A stretch of DNA of 40,590 nt from Flavobacteriaceae bacterium (GTDB taxonomy: Bacteria; Bacteroidota; Bacteroidia; Flavobacteriales; Flavobacteriaceae). The position numbers and the translations under genes were made by a program. Below the pieces are notes generated by a model. The model searched no databases. It saw only the letters and a list, made by a program, of their open reading frames with translations, and was not told the DNA's origin. Below are positions 24,854 to 37,563 of the stretch, one piece after another; the first letter of the stretch is position 1, and each line of letters opens with the position of its first letter. Location: NCBI GenBank assembly GCA_029939235.1, contig JAOZTG010000010.1, forward strand, positions 1 through 40,590, given 5' to 3'.

Positions 24854-26107
24854 TTACAAATCAAAAGCCTCTTTTACTATATCAACATAATCAAGTTTTT
24901 CCCATGTAAACAATTCCACCTCTAGTGTTGTTTTACCTGCATAAGGTGATGTAAAATGCTTAGTGATTTTTTTAGGAGATCTACCCATATGTCCATAAGC
25001 AGCAGTTTCACTATAAATAGGGTTGCGTAGTTTTAATCTTTTTTCGATAGCGGCTGGTTTCATATCAAATATTTCTTCCACTTTTTTTGAAATTTCACCA
25101 TCTGTCATAGTAACTTTTGCAGTATTAAAAGTTTCAATATTGATAGAAGTAGGCTCTGCTACACCAATTGCATAAGAAGCTTGGACCAATACCTTATCAC
25201 AAACACCAGCAGCAACCAAATTTTTGGCTATATGACGTGTTGCATAAGCAGCAGAACGATCAACCTTACTTGGATCTTTTCCGCTAAAAGCACCACCACC
25301 ATGAGCACCTCTTCCACCGTAAGTATCCACAATAATTTTTCTTCCCGTTAAACCGGTGTCTCCATGAGGTCCTCCAATCACAAATTTACCAGTTGGATTT
25401 ACATGATAAGTGATCTTATCATTGAATAATACCTGGATATTTTCGGGGAGTTTTGCAACTACTCTTGGTATTAATATTTCAATAATATCTTTTTTAATTT
25501 TTGCCAGCATTACCTTATCTTCATCAAACTCATCATGTTGGGTAGAGATAACGATGGTGTCAATTCTTTGGGGAATATTATCATCAGAGTATTCAATAGT
25601 TACCTGACTTTTGGCATCTGGTCGCAAATAAGTGATCTCCTTATTCTCTCTTCTAATATCAGCTAATTCTCTTAATAATAAATGGCTAAGATCCAGAGCT
25701 AGAGGCATATAATTTTCAGTTTCGTTTGTTGCATAACCAAACATCATTCCCTGATCACCGGCTCCCTGTTCTTCTTTATCTTCGCGTTCTACTCCTTGAT
25801 TAATATCTTGTGATTGTTCGTGAATCAATGAGATTACTCCACAGCTTTCCCCATCAAACCGATATTCACTTTTGGTATAACCAATTTTATTGATGGTATC
25901 ACGAGCAATTCTTGCAACATCAATATAAGTTTTGGTATGCACTTCCCCCGCCAAAATTACCTGACCAGTTGTTACCATGGTTTCACATGCTACTTTTGAA
26001 TCTGGGTCAAAAGCTAAAAAGGCATCTAATAAATTATCAGATATTTGATCGGCAACCTTATCCGGATGTCCTTCTGAAACAGATTCTGATGTAAATAAAT
26101 ATGACAT
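24854..26107 (-). CDS. metK: S-adenosylmethionine synthetase
   Basis: ORF 417 aa; [58 protein letters not shown]. Confidence 0.98.
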
Positions 26108-26132: not shown

Positions 26133-26203
26133 AAAAAAATGATTGCAGTATATCTAAAGAAGTAAATTTTGCTTTAGCATTTTTTTATGAGGTTGCAATC
26201 ATT
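26133..26203 (-). promoter_or_regulatory. Expression-platform helix competing with the metK SAM-II aptamer
   Basis: Minus strand AATGATTGCA (26203-26194, inside the aptamer) is a perfect complement of TGCAATCATT (26147-26138), which is followed by a U7 run; CTAAAG (26177-26172) also pairs with CTTTAG (26159-26154). Confidence 0.65.
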
Positions 26204-26217
26204 ACAAATCTATCCTC
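26171..26217 (-). ncRNA. SAM-II-type riboswitch aptamer upstream of metK
   Basis: Minus-strand RNA GAGG AUA GAUUU GUAAUG AUUGCAA CCUC AUAAAAAAAU GCUAAA GC. It shares the ordered SAM-II (SAM-V-like) pattern P1-GAUUU-N6-AUUGCAA-P1'-(10-11 nt)-GCUAAA, in the 5' UTR of metK. Confidence 0.85.
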
Positions 26218-26231
26218 TAAGATTATGGGAG

Positions 26232-26239
26232 CAAAGCTA
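26232..26239 (-). promoter_or_regulatory. Predicted -7 element (TAGCTTTG) of the metK promoter
   Basis: Exact TAnnTTTG match on the minus strand about 15 nt upstream of the SAM-II aptamer. Confidence 0.6.
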
Positions 26240-26283
26240 TAAAATCTTTAAATAATAAAATAGTATTTTCAAAAAAAATATTA

Positions 26284-26317
26284 TTTGTGCATATTAAAAT
26301 ATTTTCTATTACATTTG
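26284..26317 (+). promoter_or_regulatory. Predicted promoter of the metY leader transcript
   Basis: TTTG (26284-26287) - 22 nt - TACATTTG (26310-26317), 21 nt upstream of the first leader ORF ATG. Confidence 0.65.
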
Positions 26318-26338
26318 TTGAAACAATTTAAAAAACAA

Positions 26339-26410
26339 ATGAATTTAATTTTTAATCATATGATGCCTATGACAATGTGTATGTTTTACACGGGGGCAGG
26401 TATTGTTTAA
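26339..26410 (+). CDS. Methionine-rich leader peptide 1 (23 aa): MNLIFNHMMPMTMCMFYTGAGIV
   Basis: Direct translation; 6 Met of 23 including MMPMTMCM; stop 25 nt before a terminator hairpin; last codons complementary to the terminator 5' arm. Confidence 0.85.
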   Translation: MNLIFNHMMPMTMCMFYTGAGIV

Positions 26411-26435
26411 AATTTAATTAAAGATAAAATACTTA

Positions 26436-26468
26436 AAGCTTCTGTTTTTAACAGGAGCTTTTTTTTTT
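26436..26468 (+). terminator. Attenuator terminator 1
   Basis: AAGCTTCTGTT TTT AACAGGAGCTT (11-bp stem with one G-U) followed by T8. Confidence 0.9.
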
Positions 26469-26486
26469 GACATAAAAGAGTAAAAA

Positions 26487-26582
26487 ATGAATAAAACTAC
26501 AAACACTATGACAATTGAAATGAAGATGTTCATGCAAATAATGCATAGAACAATGATCGGGTATTGCCAAAATAGAAACTAG
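26487..26582 (+). CDS. Methionine-rich leader peptide 2 (31 aa): MNKTTNTMTIEMKMFMQIMHRTMIGYCQNRN
   Basis: Direct translation; 7 Met of 31; last codons (GGTATTGCCAAA) are a perfect complement to the terminator 2 arm and loop. Confidence 0.85.
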   Translation: MNKTTNTMTIEMKMFMQIMHRTMIGYCQNRN

Positions 26583-26605
26583 TTAAAAATGATACAATAT
26601 TTTTT

Positions 26606-26641
26606 AATCCCTTTGGCAATACCTTAACCAAAGGGATTTTT
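26606..26641 (+). terminator. Attenuator terminator 2
   Basis: AATCCCTTTGG caataccttaa CCAAAGGGATT + TTT, 11-bp perfect stem. Confidence 0.88.
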
Positions 26642-26729
26642 CATAAAACTAATTTTTGAAGATTTACATACAGTAAAGAATTCATAAACCGATGAATTTC
26701 AAATTAATTAAACAATAAAAACAAAGATC

Positions 26730-28007
26730 ATGAGTACACAAAATAGAATTTCAACCAATGCATTACATGCCGGACATGATATCAGTGAAACCGCTGGAAC
26801 AAGAGCAATCCCAATTTATCAAACAACCTCGTATGTTTTTAATGATTCTGATCACGCAGCAGATTTATTTTCGTTAAAAGAACCCGGTTTTATCTACACT
26901 CGATTGAATAATCCTACTAATGATATTTTAGAAAAGAGATTAGCAGTATTGGATGGTGGTATTGGAGCGGCTGTATTTGCATCGGGAACCGCTGCTATAT
27001 CTACTGCCTTACTAACATTGTTAAAAACAGGAGATCATATCGTTGCATCTAATTCTTTATATGGAGGAACCTATAACCTTTTGAATGTTACATTACCAAG
27101 ATTAGGCATAACCACCACTTTTGTTGATGCGCAGGATCCTGATAATGTATCAAATGCATGTAAAGAAAACACAAGAGCTGTTTTTATTGAGTCTATTGGG
27201 AATCCTAAATTAGACGTTTTAGATATTAGATCAATATCCAATAAGGCAAAACAATTTCATATTCCACTAATTGTTGACAATACCATAGCAACACCTTATT
27301 TGCTTAATCCAATCAAACATGGAGCAAATATTGTGGTGTATTCCTTGACAAAATATATCGGTGGTCAGGGTAACTCTCTTGGTGGAGCAATTGTTGATGC
27401 TGGTAATTTTGATTGGGCAAATGGTAAATTTCCCGAATTTACCGAACCATCTAAAGGATATCATGGATTGATTTACAGCGAAGCTATTGGCGAAGCAGCT
27501 TATATTGCAAAAGTAAGACTCGAAGGATTGCGTGATTATGGGGGAGCTTTGAGTCCGTTCAATGCTTTCCAAATTTTGCAAGGATTAGAAACACTACCTG
27601 TTAGAATGAAAGAGCACTGTAATAATGCTCTTGCATTAGCAAAATGGCTGGGAAAACAAAAGGAGGTGAGTTGGGTAGATTATCCAGGATTAACAAAGTC
27701 TAAAACCTATCAAAATACTATTAAATATTTACCGAAAGGACAAAGTGGTATAGTAACTTTTGGTGTGAAAGGTGGTTTTGAAACGGCTAAGAAAGTCGTA
27801 GATAACACAAAATTATTTTCACTTTTAGCAAATATTGGGGATACTAAATCATTGATCATTCACCCTGCTAGTACTACACATCAGCAATTATCAGATGACG
27901 AACAATTAGAATCTGGTGTAACAAAAGATCTGATTCGATTATCGGTTGGAATTGAAGATATTGATGATCTGAAAAGAGATCTTCGTAAGGTTTTTGATAT
28001 TATTTAA
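26730..28007 (+). CDS. metY: O-acetylhomoserine aminocarboxypropyltransferase (sulfhydrylase)
   Basis: ORF 425 aa; TNALHAGHDISETAGTRAIPIYQTTSYVF, VVYSLTKYIGGQGNSLGG, NPTNDILEKRLA: Cys/Met metabolism PLP family, long MetY-type insertions. Confidence 0.94.
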   Translation: MSTQNRISTNALHAGHDISETAGTRAIPIYQTTSYVFNDSDHAADLFSLKEPGFIYTRLNNPTNDILEKRLAVLDGGIGAAVFASGTAAISTALLTLLKTGDHIVASNSLYGGTYNLLNVTLPRLGITTTFVDAQDPDNVSNACKENTRAVFIESIGNPKLDVLDIRSISNKAKQFHIPLIVDNTIATPYLLNPIKHGANIVVYSLTKYIGGQGNSLGGAIVDAGNFDWANGKFPEFTEPSKGYHGLIYSEAIGEAAYIAKVRLEGLRDYGGALSPFNAFQILQGLETLPVRMKEHCNNALALAKWLGKQKEVSWVDYPGLTKSKTYQNTIKYLPKGQSGIVTFGVKGGFETAKKVVDNTKLFSLLANIGDTKSLIIHPASTTHQQLSDDEQLESGVTKDLIRLSVGIEDIDDLKRDLRKVFDII

Positions 28008-28292: not shown

Positions 28293-31200
28293 GTGAAACA
28301 AGAATTATTATATACAAAAATTAACAACTTTACTACTGAGACAGGGTATTTTTATCCAGTATTTGAATTGTCTTATCAAGTATTCGGACAGGATTTAGGT
28401 ACTGCTCCTATAATTTTAGTAAATCATGCATTAACCGGGAATTCAAATGTTGCTGGTAAGAATGGTTGGTGGAAAGATCTGATAGGTCAGGGAAAAGTTA
28501 TTGATACGAATAATTATACGATTATTTCCATCAATGTTCCCGGTAATGGGTTTGATGAAATTCCTGAAAATTTAATTGATAATTATGAGGATTTTAATGC
28601 CCGGGATATTGCCAGATTATTTGGTTTGTTGTTACAGCAAATAAAAGTAAATAGATTGTATGCTGTTATTGGTGGATCGCTCGGTGGCGGAATTGCCTGG
28701 GAAATGGCATTTTTATTTCCTGATCTAATTCAAAATTTAATTCCTGTTGCATCTGATTGGAAAGCGTCTGACTGGATTTTAGCGCACAATAAAACCCAGT
28801 TGCAAATATTATCCAATTCAAGTCAGCCAGTACATGATGCCCGTATGATGGCGATGTTGTTTTACAGAACAGCAGATTCCTTTAAAGAAAAATTCAATCG
28901 CACAAAAAATAAGGAACAAGGTAATTTTAATACAGAAAGCTGGTTGTTGCATCATGGTAAACAACTCGAAAACCGGTTTACTTTACAGGCTTATAAAATG
29001 TTGAATCATTTATTGAGTACGGTTGATGTAACACGTAACCGAGCTCCGTTTCCTGAATTGGCAAATCAAATTGAAGCAGCTGTCCATCAAATTGGTGTGG
29101 ATTCTGATTTCTTTTTTGTGCCACAGGAGATCAAAGAAACTCAAAAGCAATTAAATAAAGCGGGAATTGAAAACACCTATAATGAGATCAAATCTATTCA
29201 TGGTCATGATGCTTTTTTGATTGAGTACGAACAGTTATCTGAGTTTTTAAGTGATGTATTTAAATTTCCAAAAGCAAAATTATCGAAACAAAAAAAGATC
29301 AAAATTGTAAAATTTGGAGGTAGATCTCTGGCAAATGGTAAAGGAATTGAAAAAGTAATCCAGGTAATTTCTTCAAAGATACATCATGGAGAAAAAATTG
29401 CTATTGTAGCTTCGGCCAGGGGGAATTCTACAGATGATCTGCTTGATATCTTAGAAGAAGCTAAATCGGGTAATGGTTATAAGAAAAAGTTTGACAAATT
29501 TAAAAAATATCAGCTTAGTCCGGATCAAAGTGTTGATTTTAACCATGAGTTTTCTTTGTTAGAAAAGGTTTTTGAAGGTGTACATTTATTGGGTGATTAC
29601 AGCACAAAAATAAAAGACAGGGTTTTGGCTCAGGGTGAATTAATGTCGGTTAAAATGCTGACAAACCTTTTACAAAAAGAAGGGTTTGATGCAAATTATG
29701 TAGATACCAGAGAATTAATCAAAACAGACGATACTTTTGGAGAGGCAATTCCATTACAGGAATTATCCAAAGAAAATGTGATAAAATATTTTAAAAAGAA
29801 TAAGGATAAAATTCAGGTTGTTGCTGGTTTTGTAGCTTCTAATCTTGATGGAGAAACTACTACTTTAGGAAGAAACGGATCGAATTATTCAGCATCCTTG
29901 ATCGCTAATTATTTAGATGCGGAAGAGCTGGAAAATTACACCCACGTTGATGGAATTTTTACAGCTAATCCTGATTTGGTTTCCGAAGCAAAAAAAATTG
30001 AAGAACTTACTTTCCAGGAAGCAAATGAAATGGCAAATTTTGGAGCGAATATTTTACATGCAAAGACAATTATTCCACTTGTGGAAAAAAACATTCCACT
30101 TAGGTTGTTAAATACTTTTGATACGGATAACAAGGGAACTTTAATCAGGTCAGAATCCAAAAACAAGGGAATTCGATCAGTTACAGTACAGGAGAATGTT
30201 TCTTTAATCAGTTTGGTTGGCCGTGGTTTACTTGGAAAATCAGGTGTGGATGCCCGAATTTTTTCTGCCTTGGCAAATAGCGATATTAGTGTGAGTATTA
30301 TTTCACAGGGATCATCAGAAAGAGGAATAGGATTTGTGGTAAATGCTTCCGATGCAAAGAAAGCAAAACTGGCTCTTGAAAAAGAGTTTAGTAAGGAGTT
30401 TGAAACCCATGATGTTAATAATATACGAGTTAAGAATAATCTTGGAATCGTATCTGTTATAGGTCAAAGTTTAGATAATTTCAATTTCGCATACAATGCC
30501 TTGATGAAAAATGGCGTTTCACCGGTATTGATCAACAATACCGTTACTGGTGATAATATTTCGTTATTACTTAAAAATAAGGATATTAACAAAGCTATTA
30601 ATGTAATTCACGGACATATTTTTGGAGTTTCCACCAAAATTAATATTGCCATATTTGGTAAAGGTTTGGTTGGAGGAACTATGATCGATCAAATATTAAA
30701 AAGTACGGTTGATATTGAAAAGCGTAAAAATATCAAGTTGAATATTTTTGCGATAGCCAATTCTAAAAAAGTGCTTTTACAAAAAGATGGAATTAATGAA
30801 AATTGGGAAGAAGCATTAAATGAATTTGGTAAAGAGAATTATACGATAAATGATATCATGCAATTTGCAAAAGAAAATCATTTTGAAAATCTGATCGCAG
30901 TTGATAATACGGCTAATGATAGTTTTATTCAGAATTATATTCCTTTGATTGAAAATGGTTTTGATTTGGTTTCTTCTAATAAAATAGCTAATACAAAAAC
31001 ATATAAATTCTACACAGAACTTCGGGAATCTTTAAAAAGAAATGATAAGAGTTATTTGTATGAAACGAATGTTGGTGCAGGGTTACCTTTAATTGATACC
31101 ATTAATCTGTTACATAATTCAGGTGAGAATATCACAAAGATTAAAGGGGTATTTTCGGGTAGTCTGAGCTATTTGTTTAATAATTTCTCTGTGGAAGAAA

Positions 31201-31715
31201 AACTGTTTTCTGAAATTTTAAAGGAGGCAGTTCAACAAGGATTTACAGAGCCAGACCCAAGAGAAGATCTTAGTGGAAATGATGTTGGAAGAAAATTATT
31301 AATTTTGGCAAGAGAACTGGATCTTAAAAATGAATTTGACGATATAAAAATACACAATTTAATTCCAGAGCATTTAAGAAATGGAAGTAAAGAAGAATTT
31401 TTAGCAAATATGGAAGATCTGAATCCAGTCTATAAAAGGATAAAAGGAAATCAGGAAAAAGGTAATGTTTTGCGTTATGTTGGTGAGTTATCAGGAGATC
31501 TTCAAAAGGAAAAGGGTAATTTAGAAGTAAAACTTGTTTCTGTTTCAGAAAACAGTTCGTTGGGGCAGGTAAAAGGATCCGATTCTATTTTTGAGATTTA
31601 TACGGAGTCTTATGGCGACAGACCTATTGTAATTCAGGGAGCAGGTGCAGGTGCAAAAGTAACTGCTAGAGGAGTATTTGGAGATATTTTACGTCTCGCA
31701 GAAAAAGCGATTTAG
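28293..31715 (+). CDS. Trifunctional fusion: homoserine O-acetyltransferase-like (MetX) + aspartokinase + homoserine dehydrogenase
   Basis: ORF 1140 aa (GTG start). N-terminal alpha/beta hydrolase with VNHALTGNSNVAG...GGSLGGG...SIHGHDAFL; aspartokinase KIVKFGGRSLANG, TLGRNGSNYSAS, ACT region; homoserine dehydrogenase IFGKGLVGGTMIDQIL, SGSLSYLFNNF, GFTEPDPREDLSGNDVGRKLLILARE. Confidence 0.92.
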   Translation: MKQELLYTKINNFTTETGYFYPVFELSYQVFGQDLGTAPIILVNHALTGNSNVAGKNGWWKDLIGQGKVIDTNNYTIISINVPGNGFDEIPENLIDNYEDFNARDIARLFGLLLQQIKVNRLYAVIGGSLGGGIAWEMAFLFPDLIQNLIPVASDWKASDWILAHNKTQLQILSNSSQPVHDARMMAMLFYRTADSFKEKFNRTKNKEQGNFNTESWLLHHGKQLENRFTLQAYKMLNHLLSTVDVTRNRAPFPELANQIEAAVHQIGVDSDFFFVPQEIKETQKQLNKAGIENTYNEIKSIHGHDAFLIEYEQLSEFLSDVFKFPKAKLSKQKKIKIVKFGGRSLANGKGIEKVIQVISSKIHHGEKIAIVASARGNSTDDLLDILEEAKSGNGYKKKFDKFKKYQLSPDQSVDFNHEFSLLEKVFEGVHLLGDYSTKIKDRVLAQGELMSVKMLTNLLQKEGFDANYVDTRELIKTDDTFGEAIPLQELSKENVIKYFKKNKDKIQVVAGFVASNLDGETTTLGRNGSNYSASLIANYLDAEELENYTHVDGIFTANPDLVSEAKKIEELTFQEANEMANFGANILHAKTIIPLVEKNIPLRLLNTFDTDNKGTLIRSESKNKGIRSVTVQENVSLISLVGRGLLGKSGVDARIFSALANSDISVSIISQGSSERGIGFVVNASDAKKAKLALEKEFSKEFETHDVNNIRVKNNLGIVSVIGQSLDNFNFAYNALMKNGVSPVLINNTVTGDNISLLLKNKDINKAINVIHGHIFGVSTKINIAIFGKGLVGGTMIDQILKSTVDIEKRKNIKLNIFAIANSKKVLLQKDGINENWEEALNEFGKENYTINDIMQFAKENHFENLIAVDNTANDSFIQNYIPLIENGFDLVSSNKIANTKTYKFYTELRESLKRNDKSYLYETNVGAGLPLIDTINLLHNSGENITKIKGVFSGSLSYLFNNFSVEEKLFSEILKEAVQQGFTEPDPREDLSGNDVGRKLLILARELDLKNEFDDIKIHNLIPEHLRNGSKEEFLANMEDLNPVYKRIKGNQEKGNVLRYVGELSGDLQKEKGNLEVKLVSVSENSSLGQVKGSDSIFEIYTESYGDRPIVIQGAGAGAKVTARGVFGDILRLAEKAI

Positions 31716-32947: not shown

Positions 32948-33439
32948 ATGCAGTTAAAAATAAAACATAAACACCATACCCATGGTGAAACTAATCGAAG
33001 AAGTTTAGTTAAATCCTTTACTTGGCGTTTAATTGGTAGTTTGGACACAACGGTTATTGCCTATTTTGTAACTGGAGGAGATTGGAAACAGGCTATTTCT
33101 ATTGGGGGATTTGAAGTAATTACCAAAATGGTTTTATATTTTTTTCATGAAAGAGCCTGGATTAAAATTAAATGGGGCAAAAGAATTGAAGATCTGCCGG
33201 GAGTAAAAACAGCTGATACAAAAAGACGCAGTGTGGTTAAAGCAACAACCTGGAGACTTTTAGGAACTCTGGATACATTTATTCTCTCTAGTGTTTTTAC
33301 GAAAAATGTAAAACATGCGGCAGGAATATCTTTAATTGAATTATTTACAAAACCTATTTTATATTTTTTCCATGAAAGATTTTGGAACAGTATATTTTGG
33401 GGTAAAAGAGAATTTGAAGAAATAAAAAATGAAAAATAA
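32948..33439 (+). CDS. DUF2061 protein with two tandem DUF2061 domains
   Basis: ORF 163 aa; two copies of RRSxVKxxTWRLxGxLDT...FHERxWxxIxWGKR. Confidence 0.9.
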   Translation: MQLKIKHKHHTHGETNRRSLVKSFTWRLIGSLDTTVIAYFVTGGDWKQAISIGGFEVITKMVLYFFHERAWIKIKWGKRIEDLPGVKTADTKRRSVVKATTWRLLGTLDTFILSSVFTKNVKHAAGISLIELFTKPILYFFHERFWNSIFWGKREFEEIKNEK

Positions 33440-34430
33440 AATTGAAGAATTAATCAAAGATAAGATATTGATCTTAGATGGAGCAATGGGAACCATGATC
33501 CAGCAGTATAATTTTACGGAAGAAGATTTTAGAGGTGATCGTTTTAAGAATTTTCAGGGATCTCTGAAGGGGAATAATGATCTACTTACCTTAACGCAAC
33601 CAGAAGCGATCAAAGAGATACACAGAAAATATTTAGTAGCAGGTGCAGATATTATTGAAACCAATACTTTTTCAGGAACAACAATTGCTATGGCTGATTA
33701 TCAGATGGAAGATCTTGTTTATGAACTAAACTTTCAATCGGCTAAAATAGCAAAAGAAATTGCGGAAGAATTTACTGCTAAAGAACCTCATAAACCTCGT
33801 TTTGTTGCTGGTTCTATGGGGCCAACCAATAAAACAGCAAGTATGTCTCCTGAGGTTAATGACCCGGGATATAGAGCCATTACTTTTGAAGAATTAAAAA
33901 CAGCATATAAAGAGCAGGCAGGAGCATTGGTTGATGGAGGAGCAGATCTGCTTTTAGTAGAAACAGTTTTTGATACTTTAAATGCAAAAGCAGCTTTGTT
34001 TGCTATTGAAGAAATTAAAGAAGAGAAGGGAATTCATATTCCGGTAATGATGAGTGGTACTATTACAGATGCAAGTGGAAGAACATTATCTGGTCAAACC
34101 GCAGAGGCTTTTTTGATCTCAGTTTCACATATTCCACTTTTAACGGTAGGTTTGAATTGTGCATTGGGCGCAAAACAATTGACACCTTATTTGCAAACAA
34201 TTTCAGATAAAACAAGTTTTGGTGTTTCTGCTCACCCAAATGCAGGATTACCCAATGCTTTTGGAGAATATGATGAAAGTCCGCAGGATATGGCAGAACA
34301 GATCAAAGAATATTTAGATAAGAACCTTGTAAATATTGTTGGTGGTTGTTGTGGTACAACTCCGGAACATATTAAAGCTATTGCCGATGTGGTTAAAGAG
34401 TATAAACCCAGAATAGTTGATAGTTTTTAG
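33429..34430 (+). CDS. metH: Methionine synthase, homocysteine-binding (S-methyltransferase) subunit of split MetH
   Basis: ORF 333 aa; [47 protein letters not shown] Zn-binding CC. Confidence 0.94.
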
Positions 34431-34876
34431 TTGATGGTTATAAGTAATGGTCAATAGTTGTTTTAAGGAAAATATTAAAGATGAAAGAATATACAGAATT
34501 AGAAGTGTGGATTGAAGCAAGAAAACTAACAAATATGGCATATGTAGTAAGTAAAAATTTTCCAACATCTGAAGTTTATGGACTGACAAATCAATTAAGA
34601 AGATGTGCTATTTCAATTCCTTCTAATATAGCTGAAGGTTGTGGAAGACAAACGGCAAAAGATACTATTCATTTTTTACATATAGTAAGAGGATCTTTAT
34701 ATGAGTTAGAAACTCAATTATTAATTTCAAATGATCAGGAATATATTTCTAGTGAGGAATTGGATATATTTATTGCTCAAATAGTTTCTTGAAAGAAACT
34801 ACTAAATGGTTTTATAAATTATTATAAAAGATTATGAACTTAAACGACCAACAACCGACAACTAAAAACCATCAAC
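34430..34876 (+). mobile_element. IVP (23S rRNA intervening-sequence protein)-type insertion between the two metH ORFs
   Basis: Four-helix-bundle IVP ORF bounded by GTTGATGGTT (34430-34439) and its inverse AACCATCAAC (34867-34876), plus further TTGT/ACAA-type degenerate repeats on both sides. Confidence 0.6.
34481..34792 (+). CDS. Four helix bundle protein (S23/IVP family), prematurely truncated
   Basis: ORF 103 aa; ELEVWIEARKLTNMAY...LTNQLRRCAISIPSNIAEGCGR. In-frame TGA is followed by [14 protein letters not shown], the expected C-terminal helix. Confidence 0.88.
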   Translation: MKEYTELEVWIEARKLTNMAYVVSKNFPTSEVYGLTNQLRRCAISIPSNIAEGCGRQTAKDTIHFLHIVRGSLYELETQLLISNDQEYISSEELDIFIAQIVS

Positions 34877-37563
34877 AGAATAAAAATAACTGTAAGACTT
34901 TAAAGTTGTCAGGTTTAGAGCCTTTAATTATTGATGAGAATAGCAATTTTATCAATGTGGGAGAGAGAACAAATGTAGCAGGATCACGAAAATTTCTTCG
35001 ATTGATAAATGAAGAAAAATATGATGAAGCGCTTGATATTGCACGACATCAGGTGGAAGGTGGAGCACAGATCATCGATATTAATATGGATGATGGATTG
35101 ATTGACGGTAAAAAAGCAATGGTTGATTTTATGAATTTGATTGCTGCCGAACCGGATATTGCAAGAGTTCCGATAATGATCGATAGCTCAAAATGGGAGA
35201 TTTTAGAAGCAGGATTGCAGGTTGCACAAGGAAAATGTGTAGTGAATTCAATCAGTTTAAAAGAAGGAGAAGAAGCTTTTATTCATCATGCAACTTTGAT
35301 AAAACGATATGGGGCAGCTGCAATCATCATGGCTTTTGATGAATTTGGTCAGGCTGATAGTTATGATCGCAGAATTGAAATTGTAAAGAGATCGTATGAT
35401 ATTCTTGTAAATAAGGTGAATTTTGCACCACAGGATATCATATTTGATTTGAATATATTTCCGGTTGCAACCGGAATGGAAGAGCATAAAGCTAATGCTA
35501 CTGATTTTATTGATGCAACAAAATGGGTAAAAGAGAATTTACCCTGTGTGAGTGTGAGTGGAGGTTTGAGCAATGTGTCTTTTTCATTTAGAGGAAACAA
35601 TGCAGTAAGAGAAGCTATGCACTCAGTATTTTTATATCATGCAATTAAAGCAGGTATGAATATGGGAATTGTAAACCCTACTATGTTAGAGGTTTATGAT
35701 GAAATTCCGAAAGACCTGCTGGAGCATGTTGAAGATGTGATTTTAAACAGAAGAGATGATGCTACCGAACGTTTATTAGAGTTGGCTGAAACCGTAAAAG
35801 AATCAAAAAAAGAACAAAAAATAGATCTTTCATGGAGAGAGAAATCTCTTCAGGATAGAATAACACATGCTTTGGTAAAAGGAGTTGATGCCTATATTAT
35901 TGAAGATGTTGAAGAAGCAAGACAACAAGCTAATGAACCGGTAGAGGTAATTGAGATCAATTTAATGACGGGTATGAATGTAGTTGGTAATCTATTTGGT
36001 TCGGGAAAAATGTTTTTGCCACAGGTAGTAAAATCAGCAAGGGTAATGAAAAAAGCAGTATCTTATTTAACCCCTTACATCGAGGCTACTAAAGAAGTTG
36101 GGGCAAGAGGAGCAGGAAGGATATTAATGGCTACTGTAAAAGGCGATGTACACGACATAGGTAAGAATATTGTGAGTGTTGTTTTGGCTTGTAACAACTA
36201 TGAAATTGTGGATCTGGGTGTAATGGTTCCGCCTGAAAAAATTATTGAAGCAGCCAAAAAGGAAAATGTTGATGTAATTGGTTTGAGTGGTTTGATCACA
36301 CCGTCATTAGATGAAATGGTATTTTTGGCAAAGGAAATGGAACGTCAAAATTTTAGAGTCCCTTTATTAGTTGGTGGAGCAACCACTTCCAAAGCGCATA
36401 CTGCAGTAAAAATTGATCCTGAATATAAACATGGTGTTGTACATGTTTTAGATGCTTCAAAAGCGGTTACAGTTGTTGGAGATCTTTTAAATAAAAAAAA
36501 TTCAAATAAATATATAAACAATGTCAAAAATGATTATGAAAAGTTCCGTGAAGGATTTCATAAAAGGGCAAAAACGAAAGAATTATTATCTTTAGAAGAT
36601 GCAAGAAAGAATAAGTTTAAAATAGATTGGGAGAAAGAAAAAATTCCAACTCCAAAGTTTATTGGAACGAAAGTATTTGATAACATTCATCTTAAAAAAT
36701 TAGTCAATTATATTGACTGGACACCATTTTTTAGAACCTGGGAGTTACATGGGAAATATCCGGCTATTTTAACAGATGAAAAAGTAGGAGTGGAGGCAAG
36801 CAAATTGTTTGCGGATGCAAAAAGAATGCTAAAACTGATTATTGATAAAAATTTACTGGAAGCCAAAGCGGTTTTCGGTATTTATCCTGCCAATTCTGTA
36901 AATGACGATGATATTGAGGTGTATGATGATCAATTCCGCGAAAGCGTAAAAAGTAAATTCATCACCTTACGTCAGCAAGGTAAAAAAAGGGAAGGAATAC
37001 CAAATATTGCACTTGCTGATTTTATTGCCCCTAAGAATTCGAATAAAGATGACTATTTTGGTACTTTTTGTGTGTCAGCAGGATTTGGTACGGATGAACT
37101 TGCCAGAAAGTATGAAGCGGAACATGAAGATTATGAAGCGATTATGGTAAAAGCAATTGCAGATAGACTGGCGGAAGCTTTGGCTGAATATTTACATCAG
37201 GAGGTTAGGAGACAATTTTGGGGTTATGCAAGTGATGAACAATTAGGTAATTCAGGTTTAGTGAAAGAAGATTATCAGGGAATTCGTCCGGCACCTGGTT
37301 ACCCTGCCTGTCCCGATCATACTGAAAAAAGAACCATTTGGGATTTGTTAAAAGTGGAAGAAAATACTGGTGTTAAATTAACTGAAGGTCTGTCAATGTG
37401 GCCTGCAGCATCTGTTTCTGGATTTTATTTTGCCAGTGAGAAGTCAAAGTATTTCGGTTTGGGTAAAATAACTAAAGAACAGGTAGAGAGTTTTGCCAAA
37501 AGAAAGCATATGGATGTGGACGAAGCTACAAGATGGTTACAACCAAATTTGATTGATAATTAG
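34834..37563 (+). CDS. metH: Methionine synthase, pterin/cobalamin/activation-domain subunit of split MetH
   Basis: ORF 909 aa; [52 protein letters not shown] (DxHxxG B12 motif), [15 protein letters not shown] activation domain. Confidence 0.96.

Follow-up and report, generated by a model that had tools for sequence, protein, structure and literature searches.

In the window, by which we mean the whole 40,590-nt stretch of flavobacterial DNA that was analysed, the metY gene is preceded by what are very probably two ribosome-mediated transcription attenuators in series. Judging by the codons of their leader peptides, these would sense Met-tRNA and, in many relatives, probably Cys-tRNA as well. 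The metK-metY intergenic region contains, in this order, a promoter-like site, leader ORF1, terminator 1, leader ORF2 and terminator 2 (Table 1), which is the arrangement that a first-pass annotation of the sequence had proposed. Both of the Met-rich ORFs that it described and its first terminator, with a long T-run, were confirmed, as was its single promoter; no second TAnnTTTG was found between the promoter-like site and metY, so that a single transcript would carry the two units. The second terminator was borne out as regards its perfect stem but proved weaker than had been implied, its U-tract being short; because its tail is merely ATTTTTCAT, it is absent from the listing of the consensus scan. 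Downstream of metY follow a SAM-I riboswitch, a MetX-aspartokinase-homoserine dehydrogenase fusion, a second PLP enzyme of Cys/Met metabolism and a split MetH. Based on the protein families around metY (metK, metY, the MetX fusion, the PLP enzyme and MetH), the entire neighbourhood is devoted to methionine synthesis. The adjacency to SAM riboswitches that had been pointed out was also found, with SAM-II on the minus strand before metK and SAM-I after metY. SAM-II, the putative Met-codon attenuators and SAM-I all lie inside approximately 2.1 kb of one methionine cluster.

Table 1. Coordinates of the features in the methionine cluster of the window.
Feature	Position	Strand	Evidence or remark
metK	24854-26107	-	TIGR01034
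SAM-II riboswitch, 5' of metK and divergent from the metY leader	26164-26223	-	cmscan/Rfam
Promoter-like site, Bacteroidota-type, TTTG-N22-TACATTTG	26284-26317	+	Sequence; TTTG at 26284-26287, 22 nt, TACATTTG at 26310-26317
Leader ORF1, 23 codons, 6 Met, stop TAA	26339-26410	+	Translates to MNLIFNHMMPMTMCMFYTGAGIV
Unit 1 antiterminator strand ACGGGGGC, within the final codons of ORF1	26390-26397	+	Duplex with the 5' arm of terminator 1; compensatory changes in relatives
Intrinsic terminator 1, 12-bp stem, long T-run	26435-26461	+	Consensus scan; homologous terminators at the same place in relatives
Terminator 1 5' arm segment, alternative partner of 26390-26397	26438-26445	+	Duplex
Leader ORF2, 31 codons, 7 Met, stop TAG	26487-26582	+	Translates to MNKTTNTMTIEMKMFMQIMHRTMIGYCQNRN
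Unit 2 antiterminator strand GGTATTGCCAAA, inside ORF2	26560-26571	+	Perfect inverted repeat; covariation
Intrinsic terminator 2, perfect 11-bp stem AATCCCTTTGG/CCAAAGGGATT (26606-26616/26628-26638), weak U-tract	26606-26638	+	
Terminator 2 5' arm/loop segment, alternative partner of 26560-26571	26612-26623	+	Perfect inverted repeat
metY, O-acetylhomoserine sulfhydrylase, regulated gene	26730-28007	+	NCBIfam TIGR01326, 632 bits, above cut-off
One-ORF fusion of MetX-like acetyltransferase, aspartokinase and homoserine dehydrogenase	28293-31715	+	Downstream of SAM-I
Methionine synthase in two ORFs (homocysteine S-methyltransferase; B12/pterin/activation-domain)	33429-37563	+	

Chance is excluded as the source of the pair of Met-rich ORFs. 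The 506-nt region (23% GC) was shuffled 5000 times with its dinucleotides preserved; one ORF of 12-60 aa with at least 6 Met arose in 6 of these sequences and two arose in none. In the window itself, no ORF other than ORF1 and ORF2 fits this description on either strand. Consensus terminators were not above chance in the region (one found, 0.8 expected). Leader-peptide profiles that were run against the own genome matched ORF1 (E 1.3e-10, at no other place) and ORF2 (E 1.4e-12) and found nothing beyond the metY leaders except one insignificant match; no similar sequence was found in phages. In the survey of 214 upstream regions, from which 20 phylum-level stretches, mostly outside the class, had been excluded as too poorly anchored, 93 regions carry a terminator downstream of a Met/Cys-rich leader ORF before metY. 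Two units in series occurred in 40 of these 93, among them Lutibacter, Mesonia phycicola, Christiangramia gaetbulicola, several Flavobacterium and Puteibacter caeruleilacunae (Prolixibacteraceae). The tandem layout is common in relatives, though not universal: L007, L008, L019 and L205 have only one Met-rich unit between the promoter and metY, and are natural single-gate comparisons. In the relatives, a promoter-like element lies approximately 28 nt 5' of ORF1 and none lies between the units in most of the loci inspected, and read-through should therefore need both gates. In the case of P. caeruleilacunae, metY is preceded by two leaders of near-pure Met runs (MMMSMMMAMFMMMW); its metY is 76% identical to that of the window, which suggests that the gene and its leader may have moved horizontally.

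The check on conservation that had been suggested was also run: the Met-rich ORFs, the positions of Met and of the stop codon, the terminators and the pairing between ORF and terminator are all kept, with compensatory changes. In the alignments, Met8, Met13 and Cys14 of the unit 1 peptides are invariant in 11 relatives, and in the unit 2 peptides Met16, Met23 and Tyr26 are invariant and Met19 nearly so. Moreover, 599 ATG triplets of the leaders are in the leader frame and 42 are out of it (203:4:5 by frame in unit 1 and 396:2:31 in unit 2, leader frame first). Being almost confined to that frame, the triplets appear to act as codons.

Further analysis concerned the pairing of the final leader codons with the 5' arm of the terminator (unit 1) or with its 5' arm and loop (unit 2). 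In the window, the antiterminator comprises 8 bp including three G-U pairs in unit 1 and a perfect 12-bp repeat in unit 2. That the last codons of each ORF pair with the arm of its own terminator, as had been claimed, agrees with the duplexes in both units, with their covariation and with the better pairing of cognate than of swapped partners, which was equalled in 0 of 10000 permutations for both units. Examples from the relatives are GCAGAGG/CCUCUGC, GCAGCGC/CCGCUGC and GCGAAGG/CCUUUGC for unit 1 and GGUAUUGCC/GGCAAUACC, GAUAUUGCC/GGUAAUAUC and GCUAUUGCC/GGUAAUAGC for unit 2. In a register taken from the duplex prediction, which favours paired cells, 98% of the cells were paired in unit 2 and 88% of those in unit 1; exchanges between G-C, A-U and C-G were among them, and sliding the partner lowered the share to 22-59%. 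Double-change cells, counted over rows that are distinct sequence pairs and not independent events, numbered 8 and 6, which 1 and 0 of 500 shuffles reached. The same antiterminator strand, GCAGAGG, is read as A-E in L005 and as Q-R in L009 and L011. One strand that is read in different frames by lineage indicates that selection there acts on the RNA pairing and not on the peptide.

The mechanism that these features suggest would start with a ribosome translating ORF1 while RNA polymerase transcribes. With plentiful Met-tRNA, the ribosome would reach the stop codon and mask the antiterminator strand, the terminator hairpin would form and transcription would end. With scarce charged Met-tRNA (in many of the relatives, also Cys-tRNA), it would stall at the Met/Cys codons just upstream of the last codons; these, left free, would pair with the emerging 5' arm of the terminator and RNA polymerase would read through. 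ORF2 would repeat this step, and metY would be transcribed only if both gates were open. We infer the translation of the ORFs, the stalling and the response to methionine; the elements, their conservation and covariation, the frame of the ORFs, the placement of the codons and the exchange with SAM-I are what the sequences show. Because the elements are conserved across many flavobacteria, ribosome stalling at Met codons most likely decides whether metY is switched on.

The placement of the Met codons aligns well with this mechanism. For the computation, the edge of the ribosome was placed 12 nt past the first base of the A site. Before the 3' arm emerges, the antiterminator probability was then 0.92-0.93 if the A site contained a Met codon and 0 if it contained the stop codon. 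Met codons before and past the occlusion boundary numbered 207 and 11 in unit 1 and 375 and 21 in unit 2 (Fisher p of 5e-35 and 8e-22, inflated, as are all of the p-values, by the phylogenetic non-independence of the relatives). In unit 1, the last effective Met lies one or two codons before the boundary in 53 of 54 leaders. In unit 2, it usually lies three or four codons before it, which is no closer than in random placement. Folding at equilibrium proved not diagnostic of the switch and was dropped: once the hairpin is complete, nearly every unit favours the terminator at any ribosome position. E. coli trpL and hisL do likewise, trpL being a control for this equilibrium point only, because the automatic choice of antiterminator overlooked the known trp 2:3 pairing. 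The switch is therefore expected to be kinetic, and folding before the 3' arm of the terminator emerges was used instead. In free RNA, the antiterminator probability in the window was 0.07 for unit 1 and 1.00 for unit 2 and varied across relatives. As a lead from the model, unit 1 of the window is predicted to terminate and unit 2 to read through when translation is lacking, a difference that is not conserved. A protector (1:2) hairpin does not appear to be conserved. Of the features that characterise an attenuator, those found were an ORF rich in codons of the pathway, a terminator before the structural gene, a covarying antiterminator and the codon placement, with a weak U-tract in terminator 2. 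Conservation, pairing and codon geometry all argue for the methionine attenuator that had been proposed, with the qualifications that the signal in many relatives probably includes Cys and that some of them have a single unit.

As to the signal, Met is the most enriched residue over base composition in both units (6.9-fold and 8.7-fold in units 1 and 2), and Cys, which is second in unit 2, is enriched as well (2.4-fold and 6.4-fold). It is almost an even question whether the leaders sense Cys in addition to Met, with Met having come to dominate in the lineage of the window. This enrichment of Cys, the invariant Met-Cys at the unit 1 boundary, Flavobacterium leaders such as MKTIAKRNMMCCKMMQMCIPICCCQK (MMCCKMMQMC) and the Cys-rich ORFs before metY in another family of the class are consistent with a double signal. 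However, the window leaders have 2 Cys against 11 non-initiator Met, the Cys of ORF2 lies beyond the boundary, and the antiterminator sequence (TGCTGCTGCC) accounts for part of the Cys codons in unit 2 of the relatives, as Cys in that unit shows no bias towards the effective region. The signal of the window leaders thus appears to be mostly Met; in the many relatives with Met- and Cys-rich leaders, it is probably Met plus Cys.

A different question is whether both gates work in the window. It seems unlikely that only unit 1 is functional there and that unit 2 is a decaying duplicate, the weak terminator of which no longer stops transcription. The short tail of terminator 2 would fit such a decay, as would L003 (G021), a near relative. 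In the last 170 nt before its metY, the U-tract of terminator 2 is lost while ORF2 and the antiterminator are kept, and decay of the second gate is possible there. The window, however, retains the perfect antiterminator repeat, the terminator stem and all 7 Met, and a stall in its unit 2 alters even the equilibrium fold, as it does in few other units. Moreover, a good U-tract is found at terminator 2 in Lutibacter and others. Two working gates are the reading that we retain.

Flavobacteriaceae that lack the leaders usually have SAM-I upstream of metY (Tenacibaculum, Winogradskyella, Yeosuana and others), and none of the surveyed regions of this family, to which the exclusivity is limited, holds both upstream of metY. 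SAM-I was called by cmscan and the covariance model, and a regular expression was discarded (one false match in L019, 11 missed, family f17 failed). All 100 of the SAM-class stretches that were searched were positive with the covariance model, while 92 leader loci and the window gave 21 matches, every one of which, including that of the window, was downstream of metY. A quick metY tree showed at least 8 changes between the leader and SAM-I states, 4 to 5 of them forced by well-supported branches; the row of L019 was mislabelled as SAM, so that 8 may be slightly too high, and since metY may have moved between lineages, these are exchanges on the gene tree. In six loci from another family of the same class (L239, L242, L246, L255, L258 and L260), SAM-I lies at about -350, and the ORF that follows it, between roughly -240 and -110, is rich in Cys. 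In these loci (in L239, 1143-1248 with the ORF after it, and likewise in the other five), the ORF has 34-47 aa and Cys-rich end runs (CCMCM..CCC, CCCCCC). A clear intrinsic terminator was not seen after the Cys-rich ORF in such loci; their sequences make a double control of metY by SAM and Cys possible.

The presence of SAM-I at the same position in sister lineages and the structured fold of the leader region (z of about -4) could point to a metabolite-binding riboswitch with a new Met or SAM aptamer, in which the ORFs would be incidental. This is highly improbable, because cmscan found no Rfam match in 26224-26729 (neither a SAM-I/SAM-II aptamer nor a T-box upstream of metY), what is conserved is the reading frame with its Met codons and not an aptamer fold, ATG is biased to one frame, and the sole conserved RNA pairing is that of the antiterminator against the terminator. 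That the ORFs are functional small Met-rich proteins, e.g., metal-binding ones, with terminators that merely bound separate transcripts, is hardly credible: Met/Cys-rich peptides can bind copper, but here the C-terminal residues track the RNA pairing (A-E or Q-R from one strand), most inspected loci have no promoter between the units and the presence of leaders is tied to the absence of SAM-I at metY.

On balance, we favour the broader view that a large, unrecognised family of Met/Cys attenuators, often serial, controls homocysteine synthesis across Bacteroidota and was repeatedly exchanged with SAM-I; related bacteria would then sense either SAM or charged Met/Cys-tRNA, and an AND gate would sharpen the response. 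In textbooks, methionine biosynthesis stands for control by SAM riboswitches, T-boxes and protein repressors. If the attenuators are real, methionine, and probably cysteine, would join the amino acids under ribosome-stalling control, and would do so in a phylum that is reported to be generally without Shine-Dalgarno signals (PMC3155529). One gene that is under SAM sensing or tRNA-charging sensing in sister genera would be a clean natural experiment. Additionally, two gates in series for the same signal would allow a direct test, in culturable Flavobacterium or Lutibacter, of what a second identical gate contributes.

Ribosome-mediated transcription attenuation of the trp/his/leu type is classical. 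Like the E. coli trpL, hisL and leu leaders, the metY leaders have a short ORF with codons for the product of the pathway, an intrinsic terminator and an antiterminator that stalling would free. They differ in using Met codons (plus Cys in relatives), in having the antiterminator strand inside the final codons of the ORF, and in consisting of two units in series, apparently without a conserved protector hairpin, in Bacteroidota. The SAM-I riboswitch (S-box, RF00162) shares with them the position before metY, which it occupies in sister lineages, and the shut-off at high methionine supply, but it binds SAM directly, without an ORF, and is absent upstream of metY where the surveyed Flavobacteriaceae have leaders. 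In Flavobacterium psychrophilum, which belongs to the same family as the window, leader-peptide attenuation was considered likely upstream of amino-acid biosynthesis operons (PMC9723704), a statement made in general terms, with methionine not mentioned in the main text. In Actinobacteria, short leader ORFs with runs of codons for a sulfur amino acid precede the cys operons, although these use Cys only and a conserved terminator was not found there (PMC1262725). No methionine-codon leader-peptide attenuator was found in the literature searched; earlier predictions could be present in the comparative attenuation survey of Lopatovskaya, Seliverstov and Lyubetsky (2010, Mol Biol 44:128; cited in PMC4833913). 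In that literature, the methionine specificity, the tandem layout with the same signal and the exchange with SAM-I appear to be undescribed. The novelty that had been suggested for a methionine attenuator, and for a tandem one, agrees with these searches. Tandem attenuators as such have a precedent in the mgtCBR operon of Salmonella, the signals of which are ATP and proline (PMC3641672). There, too, one leader mRNA carries two short ORFs, mgtM and mgtP, each of which steers its own transcription attenuator; the signals of mgtM and mgtP differ, whereas both metY ORFs carry codons for the same amino acid.
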